From positions 62,001-126,000 of the forward strand of contig JAHIZO010000005.1 in assembly GCA_018814405.1 (NCBI GenBank): a DNA stretch of 64,000 nt. The letters run 5' to 3'. Positions 1-46,048 of this stretch are shown in pieces; the stretch's first letter is position 1; every line of letters starts with the position of its first letter. A program made the position numbers and the translations under genes. Below the pieces are notes generated by a model, which saw only the letters and a list, made by a program, of their open reading frames with translations, searched no databases and was not told the DNA's origin. The stretch is from Gammaproteobacteria bacterium. Lineage in GTDB: Bacteria > Pseudomonadota > Gammaproteobacteria > Burkholderiales > Gallionellaceae.

Positions 1-975
1 CTTCTCTATATTGGAGAGCGCTTCGCGCACGATGTTATAGGTCTGTATCTCGTGTTCCAGGGGCAGATCGAGGTCGGCGATGCGCACTTTGCAGTCAAGC
101 ACGATATGGTTGCGCCGGTTGAATTCGCCGCACAGGTCTTGCAAGGCATACAACAAGCCGGCCGGATTCATCTCGCTGCGAAAATCGGTGATCAGTGCCC
201 GCACCGCTTTCTGGCCGATCTCAAGCGCGTCTTCGATATCTCCGACGTATTTCGCGGCCGTGTTCTTGTTATTGCGCACCGCGTCGCGTAGCAGTGTGGT
301 GTTCATGCGTGCGTAATTCAGCGTCTGGGCCAGCGAGTCATGTATCTCGTTGGCAATGGACTGGCGCTCCATCAATAATTCTGCGCGACGCGCTTCGCGA
401 CCGGCTTGGGTGTGTTCGATCAGGGCAGCCAGCATATCGGCGAAGTTGACCGCCATCTGAGCGGTCGGGCTGAACGTGGTCTGCGGGGTGTCAAAGAACA
501 GGGTGAATACACCGAGCAGCGTGTCGGCAGATTCACGGCCTTCCAAGGGGATGGAGATCACCGATTGCATGCGTTGACTGGCTGAGCCGCATTGTCGGGT
601 CTCGCAATTTTCGATGGTGGTGGCGCACATGCCGTGGCGGAAAGCGTCACGATTGCATTCTTCGCAGGCCAGTTCACTCACGCGTTCGGAATCCAGCTCC
701 TCGTTCGAGAGGCCGACAGTACTGATGACGGGCAGGGTCTGCTCATCCGGCAGCAGGATGCGGATCACCCCGGCGCGTGCATGCAACATGCCGAGGGCGG
801 ATTCCAGGCAATGGTTGAGCAGGGTCTCAAGATCGCTGGCGCGCTGGGAAATGAAGCTCTGTTCCACGCATGCGTCCACACCGCCGTCCAGATCGGGCGG
901 AATGAATTCCGGCTCGCTTGTCCAGAAGAATTCGGTTTCATCCGAAAGCTCTGCGGGGATGGATAGTCTGTTCAT
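1..975 (-). CDS. NarX-like GAF sensor histidine kinase (C-terminus cut by window edge)
   Basis: The 325 codons seen run off the left edge in frame, so the ATPase domain is incomplete. The first ~190 residues form a GAF-like domain with a Cys-rich stretch (LACEECNRDAFRHGMC, then CETRQC). A HisKA_3 dimerisation region follows with the phospho-acceptor motif NEIHDSLAQ, and the N-box start REALSN lies at the edge. This is the NarX/NarQ/DegS subfamily, whose partners are NarL/LuxR-type response regulators. There is no transmembrane segment, so it is probably cytosolic. The clustered cysteines could bind an Fe-S cluster or metal as in NreB-like sensors, but that is inference. The ATG at 975 gives the full GAF region; the partner regulator is not in view. 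Confidence 0.85.
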   Translation of the reverse strand, partial: MNRLSIPAELSDETEFFWTSEPEFIPPDLDGGVDACVEQSFISQRASDLETLLNHCLESALGMLHARAGVIRILLPDEQTLPVISTVGLSNEELDSERVSELACEECNRDAFRHGMCATTIENCETRQCGSASQRMQSVISIPLEGRESADTLLGVFTLFFDTPQTTFSPTAQMAVNFADMLAALIEHTQAGREARRAELLMERQSIANEIHDSLAQTLNYARMNTTLLRDAVRNNKNTAAKYVGDIEDALEIGQKAVRALITDFRSEMNPAGLLYALQDLCGEFNRRNHIVLDCKVRIADLDLPLEHEIQTYNIVREALSNIEK

Positions 976-1205
976 CGTGACTCTGCAAGAAAGGGTTGCT
1001 TGATCCAGCTCAAGACGTTTTGCGGTACTGAAGTACGCTTATCGTTTCAAGGTTATGTCGCTTTTCAATAAATATCAACCGTTAGGCAATTGTGTTCGAA
1101 TATCCCCCGCCAATCGGGGTGGGACGACGCTCACCCGATATGGCTATAGACCCCGCGCGCTTTATTCTGCCTAATGCGGGCTAATTCCAGACAGACAGCA
1201 AGGGT

Positions 1206-1739
1206 ATGAAGATCTGCATCGTTTCAGACAGTCATGATCGTTCCGACGCATTGGTGCATGCCATCAACGCAGCCAAGGACGAAGGCGCGCAAGCAGTGAT
1301 CCATTGCGGCGATCTGATCGGTGCCAATACCATGCGCGCCTCTCTCAAGCTCGGGCTGCCCATCCATGCCGTGCACGGTAACAATCTGGGTGATGTCCAC
1401 GCACTGTACCGCATGATGAAGAACAACCCCGGCGTATTCACCTATTACGGCGAAGAAGCTGTGCTGGAACTCGGCGGTCGCAAGCTATTCATCACCCACA
1501 TGCCAAACCACGGACATGCTTTTGCCTGCACCGGCGATTACGATCTGGTCTGCCATGGCCACAGTCATACCGCGCATGTTGGGCTGCAAAAACACGTCCA
1601 GGACGGTGCATGCTGGCTGGTCAATCCCGGCTCGGTCGCCGGTATCGATGCGCCCGGCATAGTTGCTATGCCGACTTGGGTGCTGGGCGACTTGTCCAGC
1701 ATGCATTTCGAGATACGCAAACTACCTGAGGTTTGCTGA
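1206..1739 (+). CDS. YfcE/MJ0936-type metallophosphoesterase
   Basis: This 177-residue protein has the calcineurin-like phosphoesterase motifs in order: DSHD (residues 8-11), GDL near 37, GNN near 59, a metal His in FITHMPNHG, GHSHT near 118 and NPGSV near 139. These supply the two-metal site. Family members hydrolyse phosphodiesters in vitro (YfcE type), and the physiological substrate is generally unknown. GNN replaces the more usual GNCD of the third motif. Start ATG at 1206 has only a weak AAGG ahead of it. It stands alone between a divergent sensor kinase and a rhodanese gene. Confidence 0.85.
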   Translation: MKICIVSDSHDRSDALVHAINAAKDEGAQAVIHCGDLIGANTMRASLKLGLPIHAVHGNNLGDVHALYRMMKNNPGVFTYYGEEAVLELGGRKLFITHMPNHGHAFACTGDYDLVCHGHSHTAHVGLQKHVQDGACWLVNPGSVAGIDAPGIVAMPTWVLGDLSSMHFEIRKLPEVC

Positions 1740-33122: not shown

Positions 33123-34298
33123 TTAACCGCTATTTAATCCTGCGTAATATTTGCGCAATATCTCCAGCACTTCAGGACGGCTGAACTCGGCGGGGACTTC
33201 TTCACCATCCGAGAGCATTTTGCGTAATTGGGTGCCGGATACTTGCAAACGGTCTGCATCGGTATGCGGGCAGGTGCGGCCCGAGGCCATGCCGCCGCAT
33301 TTGTAGCACCAGAAGGAGATGTCGATCTTCAGTGCTTGTGTCTCCAGCGCATTTTGCGGAATAGTGTCGAAGATGTGATGCGCATCGAATGGGCCGTAAT
33401 ATTTGCCGACGCCTGCATGGTCGCGACCGACGATGAGGTGCGAGCAACCATAGTTCTGGCGGAACAGAGCGTGCAGCAGCGCTTCGCGCGGTCCGGCATA
33501 GCGCATATCCAACGGGTAGCCAGCTTGCACGACGGTCTTGCCGACGAAGTAGTTTTTGGTCAGTGCGATGATGGCATGGGTGCGTACTTCGGCCGGGATG
33601 TCGCCCGGCTTGAGGTTGCCGAGCAGGGAATGGATCATCACGCCGTCGCACACTTCGATGGCGATCTTGGCCAGATATTCATGCGAGCGGTGCATGGGGT
33701 TGCGTGTTTGGAAGGCGGCGACCTTGCTCCAGCCCATCTCGGTGAACAGTGCACGTGTCTCTTTCGGCGTCATGAACAGCGCACCGTATTTTTGCGGGAA
33801 GCCGCCTTGCGACAAGACTTTCACTGAACCGGCCAGATTCACCTCGCCTTGATTCATCACCATTTTCACACCTGGATGTTCGATGTCTGTGGTGCCGAAC
33901 ACGGTGGCGCATTCGTGGGCTTTGTCGATGGTGTATTTCTCAGTCACCTTCATGGTGGCGAGGATGCTGCCGTCATCGGGATCGATCAGCGCGATGTCGC
34001 TGCCGGTGGGGATGGCATCTGCTGCTGATTTGTCTGTGGAGAGGGTGATGGGGATGGGCCAGAACAGGCCGTTGGTGAGCGTCATGCCATCGCATACGCC
34101 TTGCCAGTCGGCGTGGCTCATGAAACCGTCGAGCGGCGTGAAACCGCCGATGCCGAGCATGATGAGGTCGCCTTTTTCGCGAGAACTCACTGTTACCTGA
34201 GGGTAACTGCGTGCCCGATTCAACTCTGCAATCAGATCTTCGCCAACTAGTAACAGCGGTTTCAGATCTTTCCCGCCATGCGGGTTTACCAATGCCAT
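33123..34298 (-). CDS. sat: ATP sulfurylase (sulfate adenylyltransferase)
   Basis: 391 residues of the homo-oligomeric Sat family rather than the CysDN type. [13 protein letters not shown] holds the HxxH active site, with [17 protein letters not shown] and [15 protein letters not shown] (zinc site) further on. In the oxidative direction it converts APS plus pyrophosphate to ATP plus sulfate, giving substrate-level phosphorylation. A strong SD (GGGAGG) precedes the ATG. It is the first gene of the apr operon, divergent from soeA. Confidence 0.95.
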
Positions 34299-34384
34299 AA
34301 AGCCTCCCTTTGGGGTCTAGCTACGGATGGAGAATCATCGAAATTTCAGGTGCGCACAGTAGAGGAACATTACAAGTGAGGCGA

Positions 34385-34452
34385 TACCCCTCATGGGTTG
34401 AGGGTTGCACCCCCCATAGGGGTTATGTCTTTCCCCCTCATCACGGCTATGG
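34385..34452. promoter_or_regulatory. Candidate sulfur-regulon operator between sat and soeA
   Basis: Two GC-rich inverted repeats, TACCCCTCATGGGTT (34385-34399) and ACCCCCCATAGGGGTT (34409-34424), are followed by GGCTATGG (34445-34452). Matching elements precede tusA and, less well, soxY. The halves resemble the TACYYMT heptamer of NarL/LuxR-type regulators. Position between divergent operons would let one protein control both. No experimental support is visible; this is pattern inference. Confidence 0.45.
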
Positions 34453-34575
34453 CAGCACTGGCGCTGGTTACGCATACTTCGGCACCTGAAAGATTGAGTA
34501 AATTCGTAGGGCAGCTGCACACGAAAAATAAAGTGTTGCGCCCCGATAACGATCAACCCACACAAGATTTTGCCC

Positions 34576-37491
34576 ATGTCATCGACACCATTGCACGACC
34601 CATTGGCGCCGCCGGTTGCTGGCGCCACAACCGAGATCAAGAAGACCACCTGTTATATGTGCGCTTGCCGGTGCGGCATCCGCGTACATCTTCGCAACGG
34701 CGAGGTACGTTATATCGACGGTAATCCCGACCACCCTCTGAACGCGGGCGTGATCTGCGCCAAGGGGTCTTCGGGCATCATGAAACAGTATTCGCCGGCA
34801 CGCCTGACCAAGCCGCTGCGCCGCAAGCCGGGCACCGAGCGCGGGGCAGGTGAGTTCGAAGAGATCAGCTGGGAAGAGACTTTCACCTTGCTCGCCGATC
34901 GTCTTGGCGAGTTGCGCGCGACCGACCCGAAGAAGTTCGCGCTGTTCACCGGACGTGACCAGATGCAGGCGCTGACCGGTATGTTCGCGCGCCAGTTCGG
35001 CACGCCGAACTATGCGGCGCACGGTGGCTTCTGCTCGGTCAATATGGCGGCCGGCATGATCTACACCATCGGCGGTTCGTTCTGGGAGTTCGGCGGTCCC
35101 GATCTGGAACGCTCCAAGCTATTCATCATGATCGGTACGGCGGAAGACCATCACTCCAATCCGATGAAAGTGTCGCTGGCCAAGTTCAAGCGCGAGGGCG
35201 GTCGTTTCATCTCCATCAATCCGGTGCGCACCGGCTATTCGGCCATCGCCGACGAATGGGTGCCTATCCGTCCCGGTACTGACGGCGCGCTGTTCCTTGC
35301 CATCATCCGCGAGCTGATCGAGCTGGGCCTGTATGACCGCGAGTTCCTGGTGCGCTACACCAACTCGGGTCAACTGGTGAATCTGGATGCGGCGCATGAC
35401 GAGTTCGGCATGTTCGTGCGTACCGAGGTGCCGGAAGAAGAGGGCTGCTACGATCCGCAGAACAAACTGTGGTGGGATCGCAATACCAACAAGCCGGTGG
35501 TGACGCATAGCGAAGGTGCGGATCCGTTCCTGCGCGGCGAGTTCAAGTTGAGCGACGGTACGCCGGTGAAGCCCGCGTTCCAGTTGCTGAAGGATCGCGT
35601 TGCGGAATACACACCGGAGTGGGCGGAAGGCGTGACCGGTATCGCTGCCGACACTATCCGTCGTCTGGCGCATGAGATGGGCATCACTGCGCGTGACCAG
35701 AAGATCGAGCTGCCGATCGCGTGGACCGATAGCTGGGGCAAAGAGCATGAGACTGTCACCGGCAATCCGGTGGCGTTCCACGCCATGCGCGGACTGGCTG
35801 CACACTCCAACGGTTTCCATACCATCCGAGCACTGTCCATTTTGATGACGCTGTTGGGCACCATCGACCGTCCGGGCGGTTTCCGTCACAAGACACCGTT
35901 CCCGCGTCCGATCCCGCCTTGCGCGCGTCCGCCTAACGACCCGCGTGCAGTGCAGCCGAACACACCGCTGGATGGCATGCCGCTGGGTTGGCCGGCCGAT
36001 CCGGACGATCTGTTCGTGGACAAGGAAGGCGAAGCGGTACGTATCGACAAGGGCTTCTCCTGGGAATACCCGCTGTCGGCGCACGGCCTGATGCATAACG
36101 TGATCACCAACGCATGGCGCGGTGATCCGTACCCTATCGACACGCTGCTGCTGTTCATGGCCAACATGGCATGGAACTCCAGCATGAACACCAGCGAAGT
36201 GCGCAAGATGCTCACCGACAAGAATGAGAACGGCGAGTACAAGATCCCGAACATCGTGGTGTGTGATGCCTTCCATTCCGAGACCACCGCATTCGCCGAC
36301 CTGATCTTGCCGGATACGACCTATCTGGAACGTCACGACGTGATGTCCATGCTGGACCGTCCGATCTCCGAGTTCGACGGCCCGGTGGATTCGGTGCGTA
36401 TCCCGGTGATGCCACGTACCGGAGATTGCCTGCCGTTCCAAGAAGTGTTGATCGAACTGGGCACGCGTCTGAAGTTGCCGGCTTTCGTCACTCAGGACGG
36501 TGCGCGCAAATACAAGGATTACCCGGATTTCATCGTAAATTGGGAGACTGCACCGGGTTCCGGTATCGGCTTCCTGTCCGGCTGGCGTGGCAAGGGCGGC
36601 GAGAAGAGCATGAAGGGCGAGCCGAATCCCAACCAGTGGGAGATGTATGCCAAGAACGACTGTGTGCACCACGAGGTGTTGCCGCGTTCCTACCAGTTCA
36701 TGCGTAACTGGAACAAGGGTTATCTGGAATGGTCGCAGCGTAACGGCATCACGCGGTACTCCGAACCGATCCTGATCCACCTGTATTCCGAGGTGATGCA
36801 GAAGTTTCGTTTGGCTGCGCAGGGCAAGAGCATCACACGCCAGCCGCCAAAGCATCTGGCCAAACGCGTCGAGACTTATTTTGATCCCTTGCCGTTCTAC
36901 TACGAACCGCTGGAGACACAGGCCAGCGACAAGTTGAAGTATCCGCTGTCTGCCGTGACGCAACGCCCGATGGCGATGTATCACTCATGGGATTCGCAGA
37001 ATGCTTGGCTGCGTCAGATCCACGCGCACAATTATCTGTACGTGAACGCACTGACTGCGAAGAACGCGGGCATCGGCGACGGCGACTGGATTTGGTGCGA
37101 ATCGCAATGGGGCAAAGTGCGTTGCATGGCACGTTATAGTGAGTCGGTGGAGCCGGGTACGGTGTGGACTTGGAACGCTATCGGCAAAGCAGCCGGTGCA
37201 TGGAATCTGACACCAGACGCGAACGAGTCGCAGCAGGGCTTCCTGCTCAATCACCTGATCTCGGAAGAATTACCGAAGCAGGCGGACGGTTCGCGTTTCT
37301 CCAACTCCGATCCGATCACCGGACAGGCTGCTTGGTATGACGTGCGTGTACGAATCTACAAAGCGGAAGAGGGAGAGCCGCAGCAGACCTCGCCGCAATT
37401 CCCACCCATGAAGAAGTATCCCGGCATGAAAGATGCGCCGACCTGGTTGGCCTACTTGGCGGGTGCAAAGAAGAAAGGCGGTGCGAAATGA
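34576..37491 (+). CDS. soeA: Sulfite dehydrogenase molybdopterin subunit SoeA
   Basis: 971 residues from ATG 34576 (a TTG lies two codons upstream). The N-terminal [4Fe-4S] motif CYMCACRCG with a distal Cys in GVICAKG opens a complex-iron-sulfur molybdoenzyme. EERSKL-type spacing, GTAEDHHSNP and the C-terminal MGD-binding domain (MAMYHSWDSQNAWLRQIH) follow. There is no Tat signal, so the enzyme is cytoplasmic, as known for SoeABC of Allochromatium, which oxidises sulfite directly to sulfate. The gene order A-B-C and the apr/sat neighbour support sulfite over polysulfide or thiosulfate as substrate. Confidence 0.9.
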   Translation: MSSTPLHDPLAPPVAGATTEIKKTTCYMCACRCGIRVHLRNGEVRYIDGNPDHPLNAGVICAKGSSGIMKQYSPARLTKPLRRKPGTERGAGEFEEISWEETFTLLADRLGELRATDPKKFALFTGRDQMQALTGMFARQFGTPNYAAHGGFCSVNMAAGMIYTIGGSFWEFGGPDLERSKLFIMIGTAEDHHSNPMKVSLAKFKREGGRFISINPVRTGYSAIADEWVPIRPGTDGALFLAIIRELIELGLYDREFLVRYTNSGQLVNLDAAHDEFGMFVRTEVPEEEGCYDPQNKLWWDRNTNKPVVTHSEGADPFLRGEFKLSDGTPVKPAFQLLKDRVAEYTPEWAEGVTGIAADTIRRLAHEMGITARDQKIELPIAWTDSWGKEHETVTGNPVAFHAMRGLAAHSNGFHTIRALSILMTLLGTIDRPGGFRHKTPFPRPIPPCARPPNDPRAVQPNTPLDGMPLGWPADPDDLFVDKEGEAVRIDKGFSWEYPLSAHGLMHNVITNAWRGDPYPIDTLLLFMANMAWNSSMNTSEVRKMLTDKNENGEYKIPNIVVCDAFHSETTAFADLILPDTTYLERHDVMSMLDRPISEFDGPVDSVRIPVMPRTGDCLPFQEVLIELGTRLKLPAFVTQDGARKYKDYPDFIVNWETAPGSGIGFLSGWRGKGGEKSMKGEPNPNQWEMYAKNDCVHHEVLPRSYQFMRNWNKGYLEWSQRNGITRYSEPILIHLYSEVMQKFRLAAQGKSITRQPPKHLAKRVETYFDPLPFYYEPLETQASDKLKYPLSAVTQRPMAMYHSWDSQNAWLRQIHAHNYLYVNALTAKNAGIGDGDWIWCESQWGKVRCMARYSESVEPGTVWTWNAIGKAAGAWNLTPDANESQQGFLLNHLISEELPKQADGSRFSNSDPITGQAAWYDVRVRIYKAEEGEPQQTSPQFPPMKKYPGMKDAPTWLAYLAGAKKKGGAK

Positions 37492-38219
37492 CACAACTCG
37501 CATTGGTGATCGACCTGAACGTGTGCGTGGGCTGTAGCGCCTGCGTGACCAGCTGCAAGGAATGGAACACTTCCGGTTCTGCCGGGCCCTTGGTGGATGA
37601 ACGTCCCTACGGTGAGAACCCGACCGGTACCTTCTTCAATCGTGTGCAGACCTACGAGATGGGCACGTTCCCGAACAGCGAGACGATGCACTTCCCCAAG
37701 TCTTGTTTGCATTGCGAAGACCCGGCTTGCGTACCGGTATGCCCGACCGGTGCTTCGTACAAGCGCAAGGAAGACGGCATCGTGCTAGTGGACTACGACA
37801 AGTGCATCGGCTGTAAATACTGCTCCTGGGCGTGTCCGTACGGTGTGCGCGAGTTCGACGAGCAGGAGAAGGTGATGAAGAAGTGCACCTTGTGTGTGGA
37901 TCGCATCTACGACATGTCGATGCCGGAAGCGGATCGCAAACCTTCCTGCGTGAAGGCATGCCCGACCAGCGCACGTCTGTTCGGTGACATCCACGATCCG
38001 GAATCTGAAGTGTCAGTGGCGATCCGCGAAGATGGTGGCTATGCGCTGATGCCTGAGTGGGGCACGCATCCTTCGAATCACTATCTGCCGCGTCGCAAGA
38101 CCAAGATGAAGATCCATGCCGACGAGCTGGAGCGCGCCGACAATCCGCTCAAACTCGATCAGCAATTGCCCAAACCGGACAAGGATCAGTCGACGATGGA
38201 CGACGTGTCGGCCTGGTAA
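37488..38219 (+). CDS. soeB: Sulfite dehydrogenase iron-sulfur subunit SoeB
   Basis: 243 residues of the DmsB/PhsB type. Four cysteine clusters can be read: CVGCSACVTSCKEWN, CLHCEDPACVPVCP, CIGCKYCSWACP, and CTLCVDR with CVKACP. They hold four Fe-S clusters linking SoeA to SoeC. Its ATG overlaps the soeA stop as ATGA. Confidence 0.93.
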   Translation: MTQLALVIDLNVCVGCSACVTSCKEWNTSGSAGPLVDERPYGENPTGTFFNRVQTYEMGTFPNSETMHFPKSCLHCEDPACVPVCPTGASYKRKEDGIVLVDYDKCIGCKYCSWACPYGVREFDEQEKVMKKCTLCVDRIYDMSMPEADRKPSCVKACPTSARLFGDIHDPESEVSVAIREDGGYALMPEWGTHPSNHYLPRRKTKMKIHADELERADNPLKLDQQLPKPDKDQSTMDDVSAW

Positions 38220-38239
38220 ACAGAACTTAGCGAGACATT

Positions 38240-39211
38240 ATGAAACCAGCATTCTCAGTGATTTTTTTAACGACTTTGATCGGTGCAGCACAGGGCCTGT
38301 TCCTGGCCTTGTTCACGCATCAGTCGTATGCGCTGTTCGGTCTGTTGCCGATGCAGTCCGATGACTTCTATGGCTACGGCACGATCATCGTGTTGGTGTT
38401 ATTGGCTGCCGGACTGGTTGCCTCGTTCTTCCACTTGGGGCGTCCCGAACGCGCATGGCGTGCGGCGACGATGTGGCGCACCTCATGGCTGTCGCGCGAA
38501 GTGATCGTGCTGCCCGCGTTCATGGGCGTGGCCTTCCTGTTCGGTGTGTCGCATCTGTTCGGCATCCGTCCGGAGATCGTGACGCTGCCCGGCGGCATGG
38601 TGGTCGATCTGTCATTGGTGCTGGGTGTGATCGGGACTTTATTGGCTTTTGCACTGTTCGTATGTACTGCGATGATCTACGCTTGTCTGCGTTTTCTCAA
38701 GGAATGGAACTCGCCGCTGACAGTCATCAATTACATCCTGATGGGTGGTTCGTCCGGTTTCATATTGGCAGCGTTCTATGCGGCTTCTGCCGCGCCGGAT
38801 CAGGCAGACTTCTTCGCCGGTTGGGCCATCATCATCACCGTGCTGGCACTGATCGGACGCGCGGCTTCCTTGATACGTAACGCACGCCTGAAGCCGACCT
38901 CGACCATCCAGACTGCGATCGGCGTTAAGCATCCCAAGATCACCCAGCGTTCCATGGGCGCGATGGGCGGTTCGTTCAATACGCGTGAGTTCTTTCACGG
39001 CAAGAGCGATGCATTCCTGCGTACGATCAAGCCGACATTCTTGTTGCTGGGTTTCGTGCTGCCACTGGTGCTGTTGGCGCTGGGACTATCCAATCCCGCG
39101 TTGCTGGGCTTGGCGTTTATACTGCAATACCTCGGACTGCTGGCCGAGCGCTGGTTCTTCTTTGCGCAGGCCAACCATCCGCAGAACCTTTATTACCAGA
39201 CCGTAGGCTGA
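38240..39211 (+). CDS. soeC: Sulfite dehydrogenase membrane subunit SoeC
   Basis: 323 residues of the DmsC/NrfD-like anchor family with eight or nine membrane helices. SFFHLGRPERAWRA after the second helix and ALFVCTAMIYACLRFL are family motifs. It anchors SoeAB on the cytoplasmic face and reduces quinone. It begins 20 bases after soeB. Confidence 0.9.
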   Translation: MKPAFSVIFLTTLIGAAQGLFLALFTHQSYALFGLLPMQSDDFYGYGTIIVLVLLAAGLVASFFHLGRPERAWRAATMWRTSWLSREVIVLPAFMGVAFLFGVSHLFGIRPEIVTLPGGMVVDLSLVLGVIGTLLAFALFVCTAMIYACLRFLKEWNSPLTVINYILMGGSSGFILAAFYAASAAPDQADFFAGWAIIITVLALIGRAASLIRNARLKPTSTIQTAIGVKHPKITQRSMGAMGGSFNTREFFHGKSDAFLRTIKPTFLLLGFVLPLVLLALGLSNPALLGLAFILQYLGLLAERWFFFAQANHPQNLYYQTVG

Positions 39212-39221
39212 TGCAATACTG

Positions 39222-41018
39222 ATGGCAACTCAAACTCGTACTCGTATCTGTAAAGACTGGCTGTGCAAGACGCTTCCATTCATGCAATGGAAGCATCTGG
39301 TAGACAAACAATCCTCCCGTGCCGATCTGATCGCCGGCCTGACCGGTGCGATGATCGTGTTGCCGCAAGGCGTCGCGTTCGCCACCATCGCCGGTATGCC
39401 GCCGGAGTACGGTCTGTATGCGGCCATGGTGCCGGCCATCATCGCCGCCCTGTTCGGGTCGAGCTGGCATCTGGTGTCCGGCCCGACCACGGCCATTTCC
39501 ATTGCGGTGTTCGCGGCCATGAGTCCGCTGGCCGATCCGGGTTCGCCAGAATTCATCAGTATGGTGCTGACGCTCACCTTCCTGGTGGGCTTGTTCCAGT
39601 TGATACTCGGGCTGGCGCGCATGGGGGTGTTGGTCAATTTCATCTCGCATACGGTGGTGATAGGCTTCACGGCCGGGGCGGCGGTGCTGATTGCGGCCAG
39701 CCAGGTGAAACATTTCTTCGGTATCACCATCGAACGCGGCGCACATTTCCATGTGGTGATCGAACAGCTGATCCTGCAACTCGGCGACATCAATCTGTAT
39801 GTCACGCTGGTCGGTGCGGTGACGCTCGCTGCAGGGATTCTAGCGAAACGACTCATCCCCAAGATGCCTTACATGATCGTGGCCATGGTGGTCGGCAGCG
39901 TAGTGGCTTGGCTGGTCAATCTGGAAATCGGCGTGGCGACCACCCACATCACGACGGTCGGAGCCCTGCCTGCGCACCTGCCGCCACTCTCGTTGCCGGA
40001 CTTTTCCTATGCAACCATCCACAAGGTACTGTTTCCGGCGCTGGTGGTGACCATGCTGGCACTGACCGAGGCGGTCTCCATTTCGCGCGCCATCGCGGTG
40101 AAATCCGAACAGCGTATCGACGGTAATCAAGAGTTCATCGGCCAGGGCTTGTCCAACTTGTTCGGTAGTTTCTTCTCAAGCTATGCCTCGTGCGGCTCGT
40201 TCAACCGCAGCGGTGTGAACTACGCGGCCGGTGCGCAGACGCCGCTGGCGACGGTGTATGCCTCGATCTTCCTGTTGTTGATCCTGCTGCTGGTCGCGCC
40301 GTTGGCGGCCTATCTGCCGACTGCGGCGATGGCGGGCATCCTGTTCTTGGTGGCCTGGGGGTTGATCGATTTCCACCATATCTCCAGCATCATGAAGACC
40401 AGCCGAAGCGAGACTGTCATCTTGTGGGTGACACTGGTCGGTACCTTGGTTGACCTAGAGAAAGGCATCTTCTTCGGCATCCTGCTCTCGCTGGCGATCT
40501 ATCTGTATCGCGTCTCCAAACCCGGCATGCGTCCTGTCGTGCCGTCGCCGGAAGAGGGCGCCTACCATTTCGTGGGTGCAGAGGACCATCAGCAATGTCC
40601 GCAACTATCGATCATGCGTATCAACGGTGCATTGTTCTTCGGTGCGGTCGATAACGTGCGTGACCGCCTGCACCAGATCGACGAAGATGATCCGCAAAAG
40701 AAATCGCTGCTGCTCACCGTGCGCGGCCTGACCTTCGTAGATGTGGCCGGTGCCGAGATGCTGGCCCAAGAGGCACGCCGCCGAAAAAAACTCGGTGGCA
40801 AGGTGTATTTCTACTCGTGCAAGGAAGCGACGAAGGATTTCCTGAAAAAATCCGGGGCGATGAAAGATATCGGCGAAGAGAACTTCTTCCCGGTGATGTC
40901 GAACTGGGTCGGGAAAATCTATCCCGATCTGGATCCGGAGATATGCCGCAATTGCAAGGCGCGGATATTCTCCGAGTGCCATGGCAGCTTGCCGAACGGT
41001 GAGCCTAGGACGAGCTAG
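39222..41018 (+). CDS. SulP-family anion transporter with STAS domain
   Basis: 598 residues. Up to about 430 lies the SulP membrane core (RADLIAGLTGAMIVLPQGVAFATIAGMPPEYGLY, GPTTAISIAVFAA). A STAS domain follows (about 460-560: LSIMRINGALFFGAVDNV, LTVRGLTFVDVAGAEML). SulP proteins move sulfate, bicarbonate or other anions. The C-terminal tail has an unusual CRNCKARIFSEC cluster. Its position 10 bases after soeC suggests transport of the sulfate produced or co-regulated anion balance; direction cannot be read from sequence. Confidence 0.9.
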   Translation: MATQTRTRICKDWLCKTLPFMQWKHLVDKQSSRADLIAGLTGAMIVLPQGVAFATIAGMPPEYGLYAAMVPAIIAALFGSSWHLVSGPTTAISIAVFAAMSPLADPGSPEFISMVLTLTFLVGLFQLILGLARMGVLVNFISHTVVIGFTAGAAVLIAASQVKHFFGITIERGAHFHVVIEQLILQLGDINLYVTLVGAVTLAAGILAKRLIPKMPYMIVAMVVGSVVAWLVNLEIGVATTHITTVGALPAHLPPLSLPDFSYATIHKVLFPALVVTMLALTEAVSISRAIAVKSEQRIDGNQEFIGQGLSNLFGSFFSSYASCGSFNRSGVNYAAGAQTPLATVYASIFLLLILLLVAPLAAYLPTAAMAGILFLVAWGLIDFHHISSIMKTSRSETVILWVTLVGTLVDLEKGIFFGILLSLAIYLYRVSKPGMRPVVPSPEEGAYHFVGAEDHQQCPQLSIMRINGALFFGAVDNVRDRLHQIDEDDPQKKSLLLTVRGLTFVDVAGAEMLAQEARRRKKLGGKVYFYSCKEATKDFLKKSGAMKDIGEENFFPVMSNWVGKIYPDLDPEICRNCKARIFSECHGSLPNGEPRTS

Positions 41019-41042
41019 GGTGTAGTTATTGAAGGAGGCCAG

Positions 41043-42986
41043 ATGAGCAGCGAAGCCAGTCATACCAAAACCATTGTTGCGGCCTTCATCTTTCTTGCGG
41101 TCGGTGTGGCATCCTTCATGTTCGGGCCGAGCCGCGAGATCGCCGTCGTACTCAATCTGCTGCTGCTCACTGTGTTCCTGTTCGCCTTCGAGGTGGTTGG
41201 TGTGGATGTTGCGGCGGTCACTATCATGGTGCTGTTGGGTCTGATCAGTCACTTCAGTAGTGTGATCGGCCTGCCGCAGCCACTGGTCGAAGGGCGGGAG
41301 TTGTTCCGCGGGTTCTCCGGCAATGCGGTGATCTCCATCATCGCCGTGATGATCGTCGGTGCCGGGTTGGACAAGACCGGCCTGATGAACAAGGTCGCCG
41401 GCTTCATCCTGCGCGTGGCGGGCAAGACCGAGACGCGCATCATCCCTGCGGTCTCCAGTACCGTGGGTATCATCTCCAGCTTCATGCAGAACGTCGGCGC
41501 AGCGGCGCTGTTCCTGCCGGTGGTCGGTCGCGTTTCGGCGCGCACCGGACTGCCGATGTCGCGGTTGCTGATGCCGATGGGTTTTTGCGCCATTCTCGGC
41601 GGCACCATCACCATGGTCGGTTCCAGTCCTTTGATCCTGCTCAACGACTTGATGCTTGCCTCCAACAAAGGCTTGGCACCCGAGCAGCAGATGCAGACTT
41701 GGTCGCTGTTCTCGGTCACACCGATCGGCTTGGCGTTGCTGGCCTCGGGTATCGCTTATTTCGTGCTGGCGGGCCGCTATGTACTGCCCGGTGGCGACAA
41801 AGCGAGCGTGACCAGCGGCGCCAACGCGATGGATTATTTCCGCAACCTGTACGGTCTGGACTACGCGGCATTCGAAGTGGTGGTGCCGGACGTCAGCCCG
41901 CTGGTCGGTAGGCTCATCAACGATATCGAGCAGCCTAACCGCTTGCGCGTGATCGCCATCATGCGTACTACGGATGACCTGCGCATCGGTCCTGCGCGCG
42001 ACATCGAGATCGTGGCGGGTAGCGTGCTGGGCATCCTCGGCGCGCCGGAGCGTCTGCGTGAGTTCGCTTTGACCAATGGTCTGCAATTACGCGAGGAACT
42101 AGAAACCTTCGCCGAGCAATTATCAGCGGCAAAATCGGGTATCGCCGAGATCGTTATCCCGCCCCGTTCGGGGTTGATCGGCAAGAGCGCACGCGATCTG
42201 TGGCTGCGCAAGAAATATGGGGTGTCGCTGATGGCGCTACATCGCGGTAGCAAGACGCTGCGCGAGGGTGACGGGGTGCGCGACATCCCGTTCCAGTCAG
42301 GTGATGCGCTAGTGGTACATACCGGCTGGGAGACACTGGCGCACCTGCAGAAGGACCGGGATTTCGTGGTCATCACTACCGAGTTCCCGCGCGAGGAGTC
42401 GCGCCCGCACAAGGTGACGGCCGCGTTGGGCAGTTTCATGCTGGCACTGGTGCTGATCCTGTTCACCAATATCACCCTCTCCATCGCGCTGATGACGGGT
42501 GCGATCGGCATGGTGCTGCTGCGCGTGCTCAGCATCGACGAAGCGTACCGCGCGGTGAGTTGGAAGTCGGTGTTCCTGCTGGCCAGCCTGATCCCGCTCG
42601 GCCTTGCGGTGGAGACCAGCGGCACGGCTAGATGGATCGCCGAGCAGACTCTGTCCGTGCTTGGCGGCACGCCGATCTGGGTGATCCAGCTGGCGATCGT
42701 CGTACTGGCTACGTTCTTCACGCTGGTGATGTCCAACGTTGGCGCGACGGTGCTGCTGGTGCCGCTGGCGGTGAACATCGCCATCGGTGCCGGTGCTGAC
42801 CCGGCAGTGTTCGCACTGACCGTGGCGCTGGCGACCTCCAATTCATTCTTCCTGCCTACCCATCAGGTCAATGCGCTGCTGATGGGGCCGGGCGGTTATC
42901 GCGTGGTCGATTACATGCGTGCCGGCGGGGTGATGACGATAGTGTTCATCGTTGTGCTGATGCTCATGCTGAACCTGATCTTCTGA
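41043..42986 (+). CDS. SLC13/DASS-type transporter with two RCK_C domains
   Basis: 647 residues. Two membrane halves (about 10-245 and 455-645) flank a soluble insert with two TrkA-C/RCK_C units (about 275-360 and 365-445: LRVIAIMRTTDDLRIGPARD, GVSLMALHRGSKTLREGDGVRDIPFQSGD). NVGAAALFLPV and SNVGATVLLVPLAV are the paired NxGA motifs of sodium:sulfate/dicarboxylate carriers. SLC13 proteins with TrkA-C domains include sulfate transporters of the SAC1/SLT type. SD GGAGG is strong. It is the fifth gene of the soe operon. Confidence 0.87.
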   Translation: MSSEASHTKTIVAAFIFLAVGVASFMFGPSREIAVVLNLLLLTVFLFAFEVVGVDVAAVTIMVLLGLISHFSSVIGLPQPLVEGRELFRGFSGNAVISIIAVMIVGAGLDKTGLMNKVAGFILRVAGKTETRIIPAVSSTVGIISSFMQNVGAAALFLPVVGRVSARTGLPMSRLLMPMGFCAILGGTITMVGSSPLILLNDLMLASNKGLAPEQQMQTWSLFSVTPIGLALLASGIAYFVLAGRYVLPGGDKASVTSGANAMDYFRNLYGLDYAAFEVVVPDVSPLVGRLINDIEQPNRLRVIAIMRTTDDLRIGPARDIEIVAGSVLGILGAPERLREFALTNGLQLREELETFAEQLSAAKSGIAEIVIPPRSGLIGKSARDLWLRKKYGVSLMALHRGSKTLREGDGVRDIPFQSGDALVVHTGWETLAHLQKDRDFVVITTEFPREESRPHKVTAALGSFMLALVLILFTNITLSIALMTGAIGMVLLRVLSIDEAYRAVSWKSVFLLASLIPLGLAVETSGTARWIAEQTLSVLGGTPIWVIQLAIVVLATFFTLVMSNVGATVLLVPLAVNIAIGAGADPAVFALTVALATSNSFFLPTHQVNALLMGPGGYRVVDYMRAGGVMTIVFIVVLMLMLNLIF

Positions 42987-43004
42987 TTGTCGATGCATCG
43001 ACAA
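42987..43004. promoter_or_regulatory. 18-bp perfect palindrome upstream of soxY
   Basis: TTGTCGATGCATCGACAA reads the same on both strands. It begins directly after the stop of the SLC13 gene and 112 bases before soxY. A spacer-free palindrome of this length suits a dimeric repressor or activator site, and it is too short and U-poor for a terminator. Confidence 0.5.
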
Positions 43005-43010
43005 AACATA

Positions 43011-43050
43011 ACCCTAAAGAGTTAGGGGTGACACCCCTTGCTGGTTATGG
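43011..43050. promoter_or_regulatory. Overlapping inverted repeats and GGTTATGG element before soxY
   Basis: ACCCTAA-AGAG-TTAGGGGT (43011-43029) overlaps AGGGGTG-A-CACCCCT (43024-43038), and GGTTATGG lies at 43043-43050. These resemble the elements upstream of soeA and tusA and are candidate sites for a shared sulfur regulator. Confidence 0.4.
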
Positions 43051-43116
43051 ACGCAACATAGGGGCTAGTATCAAATGCCCCCTCGGCGAGTAGTCCTTTT
43101 TATAGCAGGGGGCTGG

Positions 43117-43593
43117 ATGCATAGTTGTGATGGTGTGGATAACGGGCGTCGTCAAGCAATCAAAACCGGAAGTGGTCTTGGCCTGCTGGGATTGTTCGCT
43201 ATGCTCGGATTGTTGCCCGCTGCGGCGCTCGCAGGCATCGAGCGCAAGGCTTTCGAAACCAATTCGCTGAATGAGGCGCTCGATGCATTGGGCGGCCTGA
43301 TCGCCGAAGAAAGCACCCATATCACGCTGACAGCACCCGATGTCGCCGAGAACGGCGCGCTGGTGCCGGTGACTGTGGAAAGCACACTGACCGATGTCGA
43401 GCAAATCTCTATCTTGGCCGACCGCAATCCCACTATGCTGGTCGCGCACTACACCCTGCCCGAGGGCACTGACGCTTACCTCTCCACCCGCATCCGCATG
43501 GCCGAGACGTCGAATGTGATCGTTCTGGTCAAAGCGGGCGGGCGTTTCTACCGCGCTTCCAAACAAGTCAAAGTCACAGCGGGAGGTTGCTGA
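43117..43593 (+). CDS. soxY: Sulfur carrier subunit SoxY
   Basis: 158 residues from ATG 43117, which has AGGGGG five bases upstream; a longer frame from 43075 lacks an SD. A Tat-like signal (NGRRQAIKTGSG followed by a hydrophobic core to AALA) exports it. The immunoglobulin-like domain begins at IERKAF, and the protein ends TAGGC, giving the sulfur-binding cysteine of the SoxY swinging arm (usually GGCGG, here shortened). With SoxZ it carries sulfur intermediates in the periplasm. No soxA, soxX, soxB or soxCD is in view. Confidence 0.92.
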   Translation: MHSCDGVDNGRRQAIKTGSGLGLLGLFAMLGLLPAAALAGIERKAFETNSLNEALDALGGLIAEESTHITLTAPDVAENGALVPVTVESTLTDVEQISILADRNPTMLVAHYTLPEGTDAYLSTRIRMAETSNVIVLVKAGGRFYRASKQVKVTAGGC

Positions 43594-43907
43594 TGGCCGC
43601 GCCTTCCAAGATACGCGCATCGCTCAAGGACGGCGCTTACGTCGAGGTGAGGATGCTGATGTACCACGATATGGAGAACGGCCGTCGCAAGGACGAAGCC
43701 GGCAATCTCGTGCCTGCTTGGCATATCACTGAATTCAGAGTGCAGCATCAGGGGCGGACTGTGCTGGAAGGGCAGTTCGGTCCCTCCGTGTCCAAGAATC
43801 CGTATCTGGTGTTCCGCTTCCGGGGCGCGAACAAGGGGGACATGCTGTCCCTTTCATGGCAAGACAATCGGGGGGATAGTCGCGTGGATGACGCAATCAT
43901 CGATTGA
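43593..43907 (+). CDS. soxZ: SoxZ
   Basis: 104 residues from ATG 43593, which overlaps the soxY stop as TGATG and has GGGAGG six bases upstream. The domain shows VEVRMLMYHDMENGRR, PAWHITEF and SLSWQDNRGDS, typical of SoxZ. It has no signal peptide and is co-exported with SoxY, with which it forms the SoxYZ carrier. Confidence 0.94.
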   Translation: MAAPSKIRASLKDGAYVEVRMLMYHDMENGRRKDEAGNLVPAWHITEFRVQHQGRTVLEGQFGPSVSKNPYLVFRFRGANKGDMLSLSWQDNRGDSRVDDAIID

Positions 43908-43979
43908 CCAGGGCAGGGGCCGCCGCCGGGCGGGAAAAGCAGCAGACGTCGTTCAATTCAACTCAGGGGAGGTTTGACT

Positions 43980-44288
43980 ATGATTTCGTTTCGAATACTA
44001 TTGATTTTCATCGGACTGGGCTTGTGCTCTGTCGCACAGGCGGCAGGGGTCGATAAACACGCACGCAACATGGCAGCATCCTGTTCTGCCTGCCATGGCA
44101 CGGACGGCTACAGCGAAGGCGGCATGCCGGTGATCGCCGGTATGGACAAGGCGCTGTTCGTGGCCACAATGAAGCAGTTCAAGTCCGGCGCGCGTCCGGC
44201 CACCGTCATGCACCAGCATGCCAAGGGTTACTCCGACGAGCAGATCGAGATGCTTGCGAAGTTCTTCGCTGCGCAGAAGCGCAAGTGA
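43980..44288 (+). CDS. Monohaem cytochrome c, likely FccA/SoxE-type
   Basis: 102 residues from ATG 43980 (GGAGG eight bases upstream). A Sec signal ends near AQAAG, followed by the haem motif CSACH. The distal ligand is probably the Met in GMPVIAGM. Its position 41 bases before fccB suggests it is the cytochrome subunit of flavocytochrome c sulfide dehydrogenase. It has one haem; the Allochromatium FccA has two. Confidence 0.85.
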   Translation: MISFRILLIFIGLGLCSVAQAAGVDKHARNMAASCSACHGTDGYSEGGMPVIAGMDKALFVATMKQFKSGARPATVMHQHAKGYSDEQIEMLAKFFAAQKRK

Positions 44289-44329
44289 TGCCCGTGCCAA
44301 CCTGAACAACAGAACAGAGGGAGAATAAT

Positions 44330-45607
44330 ATGTCATTCAGTCGTCGTGATTTACTGAAGGCCGGTATCGCCGGTATCGCAATCGGTTCATTTCCGAGCTT
44401 GGCATTCGCATCCAGTGAACTGGTCAAGAAAAAAGGCCAGCGCGTAGTGGTGGTGGGTGGTGGATTCGGCGGCGCGACCGCTGCCAAGTACCTCCGCAAA
44501 TGGAGTAACAACAAGATCGAAGTGGTGCTGGTCGAGCGCAATACCAGTTTCATCTCCTGTCCGATGAGCAACACCGTGCTCGGCGGTAGCCGGAAAATCG
44601 AAGATCTGACCATGAGCTATGACACACTGCAGAAGAAGTATGGCGTCAAACTGGTAAAGGGCGAGGTCACTGCCATTGATCCTGACAAGAAGACCGTCAT
44701 GTTGGCAGACGGTCATCTTAGTTATGACCGTCTGATCGTGTCGCCTGGTGTGGACTTCATGTTCGACAAGGTCGAGGGGCTGGACGCTCAGGTGGCGAGT
44801 GAGAGCATCCCGCATGCCTGGAAGGCCGGCGCGCAAACAGTACTCCTGCGCAAGCAGTTGGAGCAGATGGCGGACGGCGGCGTGTTCGCGCTCGCCATCC
44901 CGAAAGGGCCGTATCGCTGCCCCCCTGGCCCTTACGAGCGTGCCTGCCAAGTAGCGAGTTACCTGAAGGAGCATAAGCCCAAGTCCAAGGTGCTGGTGCT
45001 GGATGCCAATCCGGACATCGTCTCCAAAAAGGGACTATTCATGGCGGCGTGGAACGAGTTGTACCCGGGTATGGTGGAATACCGCCCGAACTCGATGGTG
45101 ATGGGTGTCGATGTGGCCAGCAAGACGGCCAAGACCGAGTTCGAGGACGTGAAGGCGGACGTGCTGAACGTCATCCCGCCGATGCGTTCCGGTGTGGTGG
45201 CAGACATGGCCGGTCTGGCCAACGTCGATGCACGTTGGTGTGGTGTGGATTTCCTCAGCTACGAATCCAAGGTGCACCAGAACATCCACGTCATTGGCGA
45301 TGCAGTGTCGGCTGCGCTACCCAAATCAGGCCACATGGCGACCTCACAGGCCAAGATCTGTGCCGCAGCCATCATCGAGATGATGAGCGGCAAACAGCCC
45401 GATCAGGCACCGATTATCGCTAACACTTGCTACAGCATGGTCAGCAGCGACGAAGCGATGCACGTGGCTAACGTGTATCACTTCAATGCCGAGAAGATGG
45501 CCATGGTGTCGGCGGAGGGCGGCGGGGTATCGGCCAAGCGTTCCGAAATGGAAGGCGCGTTCGCCGGTTACTGGCTGAAGAACATCCTCAACGACGTATT
45601 GCTCTGA
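44330..45607 (+). CDS. fccB: Flavocytochrome c sulfide dehydrogenase, flavoprotein subunit
   Basis: 425 residues. A Tat signal (SRRDLLKAG) leads to the FAD motif VVVVGGGFGGATAAKYL. Cysteines C77 (FISCPMSN) and C367 (ANTCYSMV) match the redox-active pair of FCSD, and C197/C206 (RCPPGPYERAC) are also conserved. It oxidises sulfide in the periplasm and hands electrons to the neighbouring cytochrome. It is also called SoxF when next to sox genes. A strong terminator follows. Confidence 0.93.
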   Translation: MSFSRRDLLKAGIAGIAIGSFPSLAFASSELVKKKGQRVVVVGGGFGGATAAKYLRKWSNNKIEVVLVERNTSFISCPMSNTVLGGSRKIEDLTMSYDTLQKKYGVKLVKGEVTAIDPDKKTVMLADGHLSYDRLIVSPGVDFMFDKVEGLDAQVASESIPHAWKAGAQTVLLRKQLEQMADGGVFALAIPKGPYRCPPGPYERACQVASYLKEHKPKSKVLVLDANPDIVSKKGLFMAAWNELYPGMVEYRPNSMVMGVDVASKTAKTEFEDVKADVLNVIPPMRSGVVADMAGLANVDARWCGVDFLSYESKVHQNIHVIGDAVSAALPKSGHMATSQAKICAAAIIEMMSGKQPDQAPIIANTCYSMVSSDEAMHVANVYHFNAEKMAMVSAEGGGVSAKRSEMEGAFAGYWLKNILNDVLL

Positions 45608-45617
45608 TGTTCCGCTG

Positions 45618-45664
45618 CGCACCCGCCACGACGGCTTGCCGCTCGTGGTGGGTGCGTTTTTATT
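45618..45664 (+). terminator. Intrinsic terminator after fccB
   Basis: CGCACCCGCCACGA pairs with TCGTGGTGGGTGCG with one mismatch around an 11-base loop and is followed by TTTTTATTT. It lies 11 bases after the fccB stop and separates soxYZ-fccAB from tusA. Confidence 0.85.
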
Positions 45665-45694
45665 TGGTCAGACTCGAGGGGGTTGCTCAATCAT

Positions 45695-45762
45695 AACTCC
45701 TATGGGTTACCTTTTTCACCCGTCGTGGCTATGGACGTCTATGCAAGGTATATCCCTATAAT
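45695..45762 (+). promoter_or_regulatory. tusA promoter with sulfur-regulon-like elements
   Basis: AACTCCTATGGGTT (45695-45708) matches the inverted repeat before soeA, and GGCTATGG (45727-45734) covers the -35 position. TATAAT (45757-45762) is a perfect -10 box. No consensus -35 is present, which would fit dependence on an activator bound at the upstream elements (inference). Confidence 0.5.
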
Positions 45763-45820: not shown

Positions 45821-46048
45821 ATGAATTTCGATAAAGAGTTGAACGCACGTGGCCTGTCCTGTCCTTTGCCTATCGTCAAGACCAAAAAGTCATTGGCAGA
45901 TATGACTACTGGTCAGATTCTCAAAGTCATTTCGACCGATACAGGTTCTGTTAAAGATATGGCAGCTTTCGCTGAACAGACCGGCAATGCGCTGGTGGCG
46001 CAGGAAGAAGTCGGCGGCGAATTCGTCTTCTACATGAAAAAGGGCTAA
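45821..46048 (+). CDS. tusA: Sulfur carrier protein TusA
   Basis: 75 residues. The TusA signature CPLP has its persulfide-carrying cysteine at C14, and DTGSVKDMAAF follows. In sulfur oxidisers TusA delivers sulfane sulfur to Dsr or sHdr enzymes in the cytoplasm. SD AGGAGAG lies before the ATG. It is transcribed with dsrE2, 36 bases apart. Confidence 0.95.
   Translation: MNFDKELNARGLSCPLPIVKTKKSLADMTTGQILKVISTDTGSVKDMAAFAEQTGNALVAQEEVGGEFVFYMKKG

Follow-up and report, generated by a model that had tools for sequence, protein, structure and literature searches.

Is sulfur oxidation in the Gallionellaceae, with its several parallel routes, held by one regulatory switch, and if so by which? The stretch considered here, termed the window, comprises 64,000 nucleotides of a Gallionellaceae genome (GCA_018814405.1, contig JAHIZO010000005.1, positions 62,001–126,000 of the forward strand). 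It carries genes of the direct (soeABC) and indirect (sat, aprBA-like) routes of sulfite oxidation, as well as soxYZ and tusA. The genome is 2.38 Mb in size (own label G000), and its nearest soeA relatives are labelled Sideroxydans or Gallionellaceae. A preliminary description pointed to operator-like strings before soeA, tusA and soxY, and suggested that one NarL/LuxR-type regulator controls a sulfur regulon that includes both sulfite routes. The strings are all present, on the plus strand, and the proposal of a single regulator gains support from a NarL-type protein with a matching distribution and neighbourhood. The reading put forward here, to which we assign a probability of about 0.82, is that a two-site operator of this NarL-type regulator, with a partner NarX-like kinase, governs sulfur-oxidation genes. 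Computation shows the operator and how it is conserved, the genes that it precedes, the regulator-kinase pair with its co-occurrence and gene neighbourhood, and the GAF fold and conserved cysteines of the kinase; binding, partnership, activation and cysteine sensing we infer.

Anatomy of the operator

The operator consists of two tandem dyads with centres 21–26 bp apart, and is found before tusA, soxY, soeA, a gene for a yfcE-type phosphoesterase, and sqr. Promoters of tusA in relatives have one layout: an upstream dyad near GATAACCC-N4-GGGTTATC and a second, less symmetric copy, ACCC-N4-TGGYTATGGACG, centred 21–24 bp downstream. The GGYTATGG motif of the preliminary description is the right half of this second, degenerate copy. 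Spacing between centres over the 25 tusA pairs used in training is 22 bp in 15, 23 bp in eight, and 21 and 24 bp in one each. A TATAAT hexamer follows, with its first base 30 nt from the GG of that copy; the two most distant pairs (L112 and L114) are exceptions, and no recognisable −35 was seen by eye in the tusA promoters of the relatives.

The sites before tusA, soxY and the divergent soeA and sat genes are as follows.

45692..45711, plus strand: tusA operator site 1, CATAACTCCTATGGGTTACC, from matrix scans (53.2) and relatives
45718..45737, plus strand: tusA operator site 2, ACCCGTCGTGGCTATGGACG, from matrix scans and relatives
45757..45762, plus strand: tusA −10, TATAAT, from sequence and the spacing peak
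45821..46048, plus strand: tusA, followed by a DsrE2-like gene at 46085-46552
43007..43026, plus strand: soxY operator site 1, CATAACCCTAAAGAGTTAGG, from matrix scans (45.8)
43034..43053, plus strand: soxY operator site 2, CCCCTTGCTGGTTATGGACG, from matrix scans
43117..43593, plus strand: soxY, likely start 43117 (MHSC...GRRQ), followed by soxZ, a cytochrome c gene and an FCSD/SQR-like gene
34383..34402, plus strand: operator site A, GATACCCCTCATGGGTTGAG, between soeA and sat, promoter-proximal for sat on the minus strand; a copy is also in L005, L006, L007 and L010
34408..34427, plus strand: operator site B, CACCCCCCATAGGGGTTATG, upstream partner of both divergent promoters (scoring 20.4 when paired with site C and, read on the minus strand, 19.7 with site A)
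34436..34455, plus strand: operator site C, CCTCATCACGGCTATGGCAG, promoter-proximal for soeA; of the 10 loci L005-L014, 7 have CTCATCACGGCTATGG without a mismatch
34475..34480, plus strand: putative soeA −10, TACTTC, 30 nt from the GG of site C
34356..34361, minus strand: putative sat −10, TACTGT, 27 nt from the GG of site A (minus), read by eye
34576..37491, plus strand: soeA, from molybdopterin-enzyme matches, orthologs and gene order; direct sulfite-oxidation route
37488-39211, plus strand: soeB and soeC-like genes, downstream of soeA
33123..34298, minus strand: sat (ATP sulfurylase), preceding aprBA-like genes; indirect sulfite-oxidation route

The longest frame of soxY begins at 43075; starts in relatives favour 43117.

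The strings originally noted fall within or across these sites.

34385, plus strand: TACCCCTCATGGGTT, before soeA
34409, plus strand: ACCCCCCATAGGGGTT, before soeA
34445 and 45727, plus strand: GGCTATGG, at soeA and tusA
45695, plus strand: AACTCCTATGGGTT, before tusA
43024, plus strand: AGGGGTGACACCCCT, before soxY
43043, plus strand: GGTTATGG, at soxY

Both tusA (TATAAT at 45757) and soeA (TACTTC at 34475) do have the stated 22 bases between GGCTATGG and the −10 hexamer. The string AGGGGTGACACCCCT proved to be out of register as a soxY site, as it straddles the gap between CATAACCCTAAAGAGTTAGG (43007-43026) and the second site from 43034.

The geometry is general. Among 127 distinct two-site hits scoring at least 14 in the scanned loci, centre spacing is 22–25 bp in 118, 21 in five and 26 in four, and hexamers close to the −10 consensus (5 or more of 6 positions) peak at 30 nt, with 27 hits (the next highest position has 5). 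The soeA-sat array has three copies in the own genome and in L005, L006, L007 and L010, and two in L009 and L011-L014. On the minus strand the own array faces sat, with a score of 19.7 (matrix 3, see below), and a TANNNT hexamer, read by eye, lies 27–28 nt beyond the sat-facing site.

NarL heptamers occur as pairs spaced 7-2-7. Aligned to an inverted TACYYMT in this arrangement, the even-centred dyad agrees at 10.25 of 14 positions over 20 upstream sites of relatives (next register 6.7), and four own sites agree at 10.5 of 14 (next register 8.25; shuffles about 5.1); TACYYMT is the heptamer consensus given for NarL (PMC4886647). As the dyad fits best in the centred 7-2-7 register, it agrees with a NarL-type dimer, though it is not an exact NarL site.

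Signal above background

Three weight matrices were constructed. Matrix 1 holds 20 unique two-site pairs from the tusA promoters of relatives only; these come from 25 of 29 non-own tusA loci, L099, L104, L111 and L113 having been dropped. Matrix 2 includes own and soeA sites, and its scores are therefore not counted as evidence. Matrix 3 holds 56 unique pairs from tusA, sox and kinase-adjacent sites of relatives, with no own sites, no soeA sites and none of the 19 regulator loci of other genera discussed below. Its own-genome scores are less than independent because close relatives are in the training set, and its genus scores for kinase-adjacent sites are partly circular because those training sites were chosen by their site-2 letters. 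A 360-kb sample of the own genome served as background, and for matrix 3 also the reversed window.

With matrix 1 the window scores are 57.4 for tusA, 47.9 for soxY, and 19.4 (reverse, toward sat) and 14.3 (forward) for soeA; the best two scores in the background sample are 13.65 and 10.66. Matrix 3 gives 53.2 for tusA, 45.8 for soxY, 22.1 for the phosphoesterase site (from 1104), 20.4 for soeA and, outside the window, 29.4 for the sqr operator. Its maxima are 8.7 in the background sample and 7.5 in the reversed window, so that even the lower scores, those at soeA, the phosphoesterase gene and sqr, are above any found in the sample. A weight-matrix scan, which the preliminary description had proposed as a check, places high scores, in the own genome and in relatives, before the sulfur genes tusA, soxY, soeA and sqr, and before the yfcE-type phosphoesterase gene. 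A search pattern modelled closely on the own soeA site had four matches, one of which is soeA itself.

Contexts of the exact core TGGYTATGGACG in the genus are sharply divided: among 54 distinct contexts examined, 35 have an upstream dyad and score at least 41, 19 score 9 or less, and none lies between. Exact cores with the dyad stand before tusA, soxY or cytochrome/flavoprotein genes, and the rest are mostly within reading frames (by eye). Of 80 near-matches to the core inspected in the own genome, tusA and soxY alone have a two-site score above 15; the 80 comprise 75 of the 76 one-mismatch matches of TGGYTATGGAC, G000:C10:99459 being left out, and those from one further search. The signal resides in the two-site pair, not in the core alone.

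The regulator and its proposed partner kinase

Four proteins with a LuxR-type helix-turn-helix were found in the own genome. One is encoded about 240 bp to the left of the window (G000:C9:61103-61762, minus strand), flanked by an SQR-like gene and by a kinase gene whose start lies within the window (region G000:C9:59680-62975). Receiver (PF00072) and GerE helix-turn-helix (PF00196) domains are both over cut-off, which makes the protein a NarL/FixJ-type response regulator, and its best match in the PDB is 1a04, E. coli NarL (E 5.7e-40). By its sequence it is NarL-like, and not NarL. A moeA-like gene, recognised by eye, is found further left of the regulator and SQR-like genes.

Sites and genes at the left end of the window are these.

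1..975, minus strand: proposed cognate kinase, N-terminal 325 of 406 aa, with a GAF fold containing C104, C107 and C124, then HisKA_3; the gene runs on to the left of the window
1104..1123, plus strand: phosphoesterase operator site 1, facing the metallophosphoesterase gene and pointing away from the kinase gene; the own-genome copy is degenerate
1133..1152, plus strand: phosphoesterase operator site 2, ACCCGATATGGCTATAGACC, facing the metallophosphoesterase gene
1206..1739, plus strand: yfcE-type metallophosphoesterase, a candidate regulon member

The preliminary description had matched a 20-base stretch from 1132, upstream of the metallophosphoesterase gene, to the tusA element at 16 positions, and the count of 16 of 20 is correct. 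The phosphoesterase gene is divergent from the kinase gene in the own genome and in several relatives, and is seemingly under the same operator.

The kinase is 406 aa long and joins a HisKA_3 and HATPase_c transmitter to a GAF-like module. Its best models are NarQ and NarX, of which the C-terminal parts alone are matched. There is no match to a nitrate sensor or HAMP domain, and the features that define NarX/NarQ, i.e. the P-box sensor, transmembrane segments and HAMP, were not found. The highest 19-residue hydropathy is 1.17 in the own kinase and 1.28–1.61 in three others, and thus there is no strongly hydrophobic stretch, although no transmembrane predictor was run. No PAS match was detected in three kinases examined.

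Three residues, C104, C107 and C124, are the sole invariant cysteines in 12 of 12 diverse kinases (own versus the other 11, 28–34% identity). Within the genus, C104 and C124 are present in all 29 rows (own counted twice) and C107 in 25. The cysteine cluster C302-C316 of E. coli NarX is roughly aligned with these residues. In a predicted structure of the part of the kinase encoded in the window, mean pLDDT is 65.5 and, averaged in blocks, most of the GAF region lies at about 70–89 and the surroundings of the cysteine loop at 58–69; the model matches GAF domains of kinases and signalling proteins (3hcy, 2qyb) with TM-scores, by target, of 0.76–0.78.

According to a review, the sensor domain is what defines nitrate-sensing kinases, and there is no evidence that the GAF-like domain of NarX acts as a sensor on its own (PMC8199190). 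None of the 34 genus genomes yielded a narG gene (napA was not searched). With no nitrate sensor, a GAF module bearing cysteines, and no narG in these genomes, the signal is taken as intracellular and sulfur- or redox-related, and from sequence and model the module with its three conserved cysteines probably reads it. From its sequence, the kinase gene seems to be read from a separate promoter of constitutive appearance, TTGATA-17 bp-TAACCT, and similar promoters were seen by eye in several relatives.

Distribution among relatives

An ortholog of the regulator is present in 29 of the 34 genus genomes, at 71–100% identity; G003, G005 and G026 have a second copy at 63–69%. All 29 of these genomes have the operator, the own genome among them and the other 28 at a score of at least 12. 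In four of the five genomes that lack the regulator (G010, G019, G020 and G027) no operator was found within the few stretches scanned, and since these were few, its absence is judged chiefly from missing exact cores with a dyad and a missing tusA ortholog.

In the wider family the regulator has a match at E ≤1e-45 in 41 of 60 genomes. Regulator loci examined number 48; an operator points out of the kinase gene in 40 and faces sqr in 21, and 46 of the 48 have one or both. Loci from other genera, outside the training set, have the operator in 17 of 19 cases. A search across the class found NarL-like proteins in 128 of 369 genomes at E ≤1e-40, which merely shows that such proteins are common; 29 new NarL-like loci from this search have no operator at a score of 8 or more.

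Conservation in orthologous intergenic regions, which the preliminary description made a test of its proposal, was checked on samples and was observed. The operator before tusA is conserved in 27 of 30 tusA loci, and all 14 Gallionellaceae-like soeA loci carry it (matrix 3 scores 11.9-33.7), a group drawn by taxon label and likeness, post hoc, once the sites were known. Locus L062, labelled Gallionellaceae and kept in the other soeA group, has no operator in the 181 bp available upstream of soeA.

Upstream sequence allowed 77 of 80 soeA loci to be scored (L044, L077 and L079 have none). Of the 63 loci beyond the 14, an operator scoring at least 8 is found in 10 of 12 with the regulator-kinase pair in the locus versus 2 of 51 without (Fisher 3e-8); over all 77 the figures are 10 of 12 versus 16 of 65 (Fisher 2e-4). 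Both Fisher values overstate independence, because the soeA rows are related. In those ten loci the pair is directly upstream of soeA and divergent from it, with two sites between; by most labels they are from Burkholderiales, and one is an Azoarcus metagenome-assembled genome (MAG). By coordinates, soeA also faces out from the kinase side in G436 (L336), as in Burkholderiales.

Several genomes of other genera and orders, outside the training set of matrix 3, which holds Gallionellaceae sites only, have more than one target (matrix 3; genes by eye). In a Rubrivivax MAG (L019) one operator adjoins the pair in front of sat and another precedes the tusA-dsrE2 region. Further operators are found before soeA and the tusA-dsrE2 region in Curvibacter (L076); before soeA and tusA in the Azoarcus MAG (L060); and before soxY and soeA in L042.

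Two further associations were read by eye. In L178, L188, L183 and L169 an operator stands before genes for c-type cytochromes and an FCSD/SoxF-like flavoprotein, and in G034 (L327, G034:C150) before a gene for a Rieske-type iron-sulfur protein. The latter site would connect the switch to the cytochrome bc1 complex.

Points against and alternative explanations

A number of observations weigh against the operator and regulator as described. With respect to the sites, the forward soeA pair (14.3) is marginal by matrix 1, given a background best of 13.65; soeA site 2 deviates from the tusA form; the soxY −10 is not at 30 nt, a TATCAA being found at about 26; and the half-sites are TAACCC and not exact TACYYMT, the third heptamer base being mostly A. 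With respect to the proteins, the regulator is below the cut-off of 250 of the NarL equivalog NF007935 (188.8 bits own, 207.7 in L030), the kinase is under the curated NarQ/NarX cut-offs, and C107 is missing in 4 of the 29 genus rows. The distribution also has its discrepancies. G023 (69% complete) has the operator and no regulator in its assembly; in L036 and L031 an operator is present and the regulator is not in the examined stretch. In L337 and L339 the regulator is present but no operator lies near it, and L019 and L072 have the regulator and a poor soeA site. In the stretch examined around each of the 14 Gallionellaceae-like soeA loci, at most 10 kb on either side, the pair does not occur. 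The exact TGGYTATGGACG core is largely particular to the genus, other genera often having TATAGACA; among 17 exact-core loci outside the genus, a dyad accompanies it in only 1 of 8 from regulator-bearing genomes and in 0 of 9 from regulator-less genomes, so that the exact core there offers no test between the two. Finally, co-occurrence of pair and operator could partly reflect a single sulfur island that has both, and the genomes are not independent.

Might GC-rich inverted repeats before a few genes be alike by chance? Few sites had originally been compared, by eye, and the core by itself is at control frequency: exact TGGYTATGGACG has 57 matches versus 57 in reversed controls over the 34 genus genomes, and TGGYTATGGAC with one mismatch has 76 versus 104 in the own genome. 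An equal frequency before unrelated genes, named in the preliminary description as grounds for giving up the proposal, is thus true of the core alone in the samples checked, and false of the two-site element. Scores far over the sampled background, the sharp bimodality and the conservation lead to rejection of chance for that element, with next to no probability left to it. A regulator that represses, its −35-proximal site blocking polymerase until a signal releases it, is unlikely, though it would explain why site 2 overlies the −35 region; there is no usable −35 at tusA by eye, and the distance to the −10 is constant (peak at 30 nt), which would fit a polymerase that depends on a contact at that position.

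Slightly less likely still is that the operator is real but is bound by another regulator of the sulfur island, e.g. of the LysR type, the NarL-type pair being a neighbour with another target. LysR-type promoters have recognition and activation sites about 21 bp apart, and two dyads 21–26 bp apart, the distal one more symmetric, resemble them. The even-centred dyad, however, fits the NarL 7-2-7 arrangement best in one register, and a rough regular expression for LysR proteins found a single one, in L056, over the window, four own-genome loci and the 80 soeA loci (the whole genome was not searched). Moreover, the pair adjoins the operator in differing contexts: soeA in Burkholderiales, sat in L019, and the phosphoesterase gene or sqr in Gallionellaceae. 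From the nearest known proteins, which are NarL and NarX/NarQ, one might suppose the pair to be a regular nitrate/nitrite system, linking sulfur oxidation with denitrification. With a kinase that has no match to a periplasmic sensor or HAMP domain and resembles only the C-terminal parts of the NarQ/NarX models, and with 29 NarL-like loci from other genomes of the class that lack the operator, this is very improbable, and nitrate control was rejected as the principal reading on the missing sensor domain and the narG count (0 of 34, napA not searched).

A proposed mechanism

If the two-site operator belongs to the NarL-type regulator, two dimers of it would occupy dyads of the form TAACCCN-NN-NGGGTTA, separated by roughly two turns of the helix. 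Of these dyads, the degenerate one downstream covers the −35 region, with the −10 at a nearly fixed distance. Site 2 over the −35 region, the fixed −10 distance and the lack of a recognisable −35 form a layout of activator-dependent promoters, and phosphorylated dimers on both dyads, on one face of the DNA, may recruit polymerase at these promoters. The phosphoryl group would come from the partner kinase, a NarX-like protein apparently without periplasmic sensor, membrane helices or HAMP domain. Genes regulated in this way would be sat-apr and soeABC, which are divergent and have three sites in common, soxYZ, tusA-dsrE2, sqr and the gene for the yfcE-type phosphoesterase. As the same three sites would serve sat-apr and soeABC, both sulfite routes would be expected to rise together.

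A broader proposal is tentative, with the odds somewhat against it. The sensor-less NarX-type kinase may directly sense intracellular sulfane sulfur, persulfide or sulfite by way of its GAF CxxC...C motif and, with the NarL-type regulator and tandem 7-2-7 operators, might act as a master switch for sulfide, thiosulfate and both sulfite routes in Gallionellaceae and Burkholderiales.

Comparison with known systems

The closest known system is NarX/NarQ-NarL/NarP of E. coli. The regulator is nearest to NarL (1a04) and the kinase transmitter to NarQ/NarX; both kinases have a GAF-like module with a roughly aligned cysteine cluster (C302-C316 in NarX), and the dyad fits, in part, the 7-2-7 heptamer layout of NarL sites. 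Unlike NarX and NarL, the pair described here has no match to a nitrate sensor or HAMP domain and no strongly hydrophobic stretch, and it scores below the curated cut-offs for NarL and NarX. The targets are genes of sulfur oxidation, the dyads are in tandem at 21–26 bp, and narG was not found in the 34 genus genomes.

NreBC of Bacillus licheniformis, as far as the source is drawn on here, is a pair of NarL-family regulator and kinase that activates the sulfide-oxidation genes sqr and pdo (PMC9918477), and in that respect is alike. It is a Gram-positive system in which a PAS kinase reportedly senses sulfide, under a second repressor, YrkD (PMC9918477), whereas here the kinase is of the GAF-cysteine type and the targets include sat, soeABC, soxYZ and tusA. 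In Acidithiobacillus caldus, TspSR and RsrSR provide two-component control of thiosulfate-oxidation genes via repeats before their targets, and both are described for periplasmic thiosulfate metabolism (PMC6335251). TspR is sigma54-dependent with the upstream activating sequence TGTCCCAAATGGGACA, and RsrR binds AACACCTGTTACACCTGTT, neither of which is the operator found here (PMC6335251). Nor was sigma54 control of the TspR type found at this locus, the regulator having no AAA+ match and the tusA −10 being TATAAT. The ArsR-type repressors SoxR and sHdrR control thiosulfate oxidation in one proteobacterium in response to sulfane sulfur (PMC12423496); they are one-component repressors, in contrast to the two-component pair here. 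In the portions of these papers that were consulted, none of NreBC, TspSR and RsrSR has the operator, kinase or target set found here.

Neighbouring genes

Genes for SulP-type and DASS-type anion transporters, candidates for sulfate/sulfite transport, are located at 39222-42986, between the soe genes and soxY. Elsewhere in the genome, at G000:C9:36176-36634, two diverged TusA-like domains are present in one 204-aa frame, and a similar pair of matches is found in many relatives.

Significance

In the open-licence literature of PubMed Central, the scope of our search (subscription papers and preprints are outside it), no description was found of such a switch or of a regulator of soeABC or of the Gallionellaceae, nor any account of how SoeABC, Sat/Apr, Sox and TusA are controlled in betaproteobacterial sulfur oxidisers. 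The findings also bear on the question of the NarX GAF-like module (cf. PMC8199190), which here stands without a sensor and keeps its conserved cysteines. A regulator, a kinase, an operator and a list of target genes are now named, and can be tested at once in culturable Burkholderiales and in iron and sulfur oxidisers.

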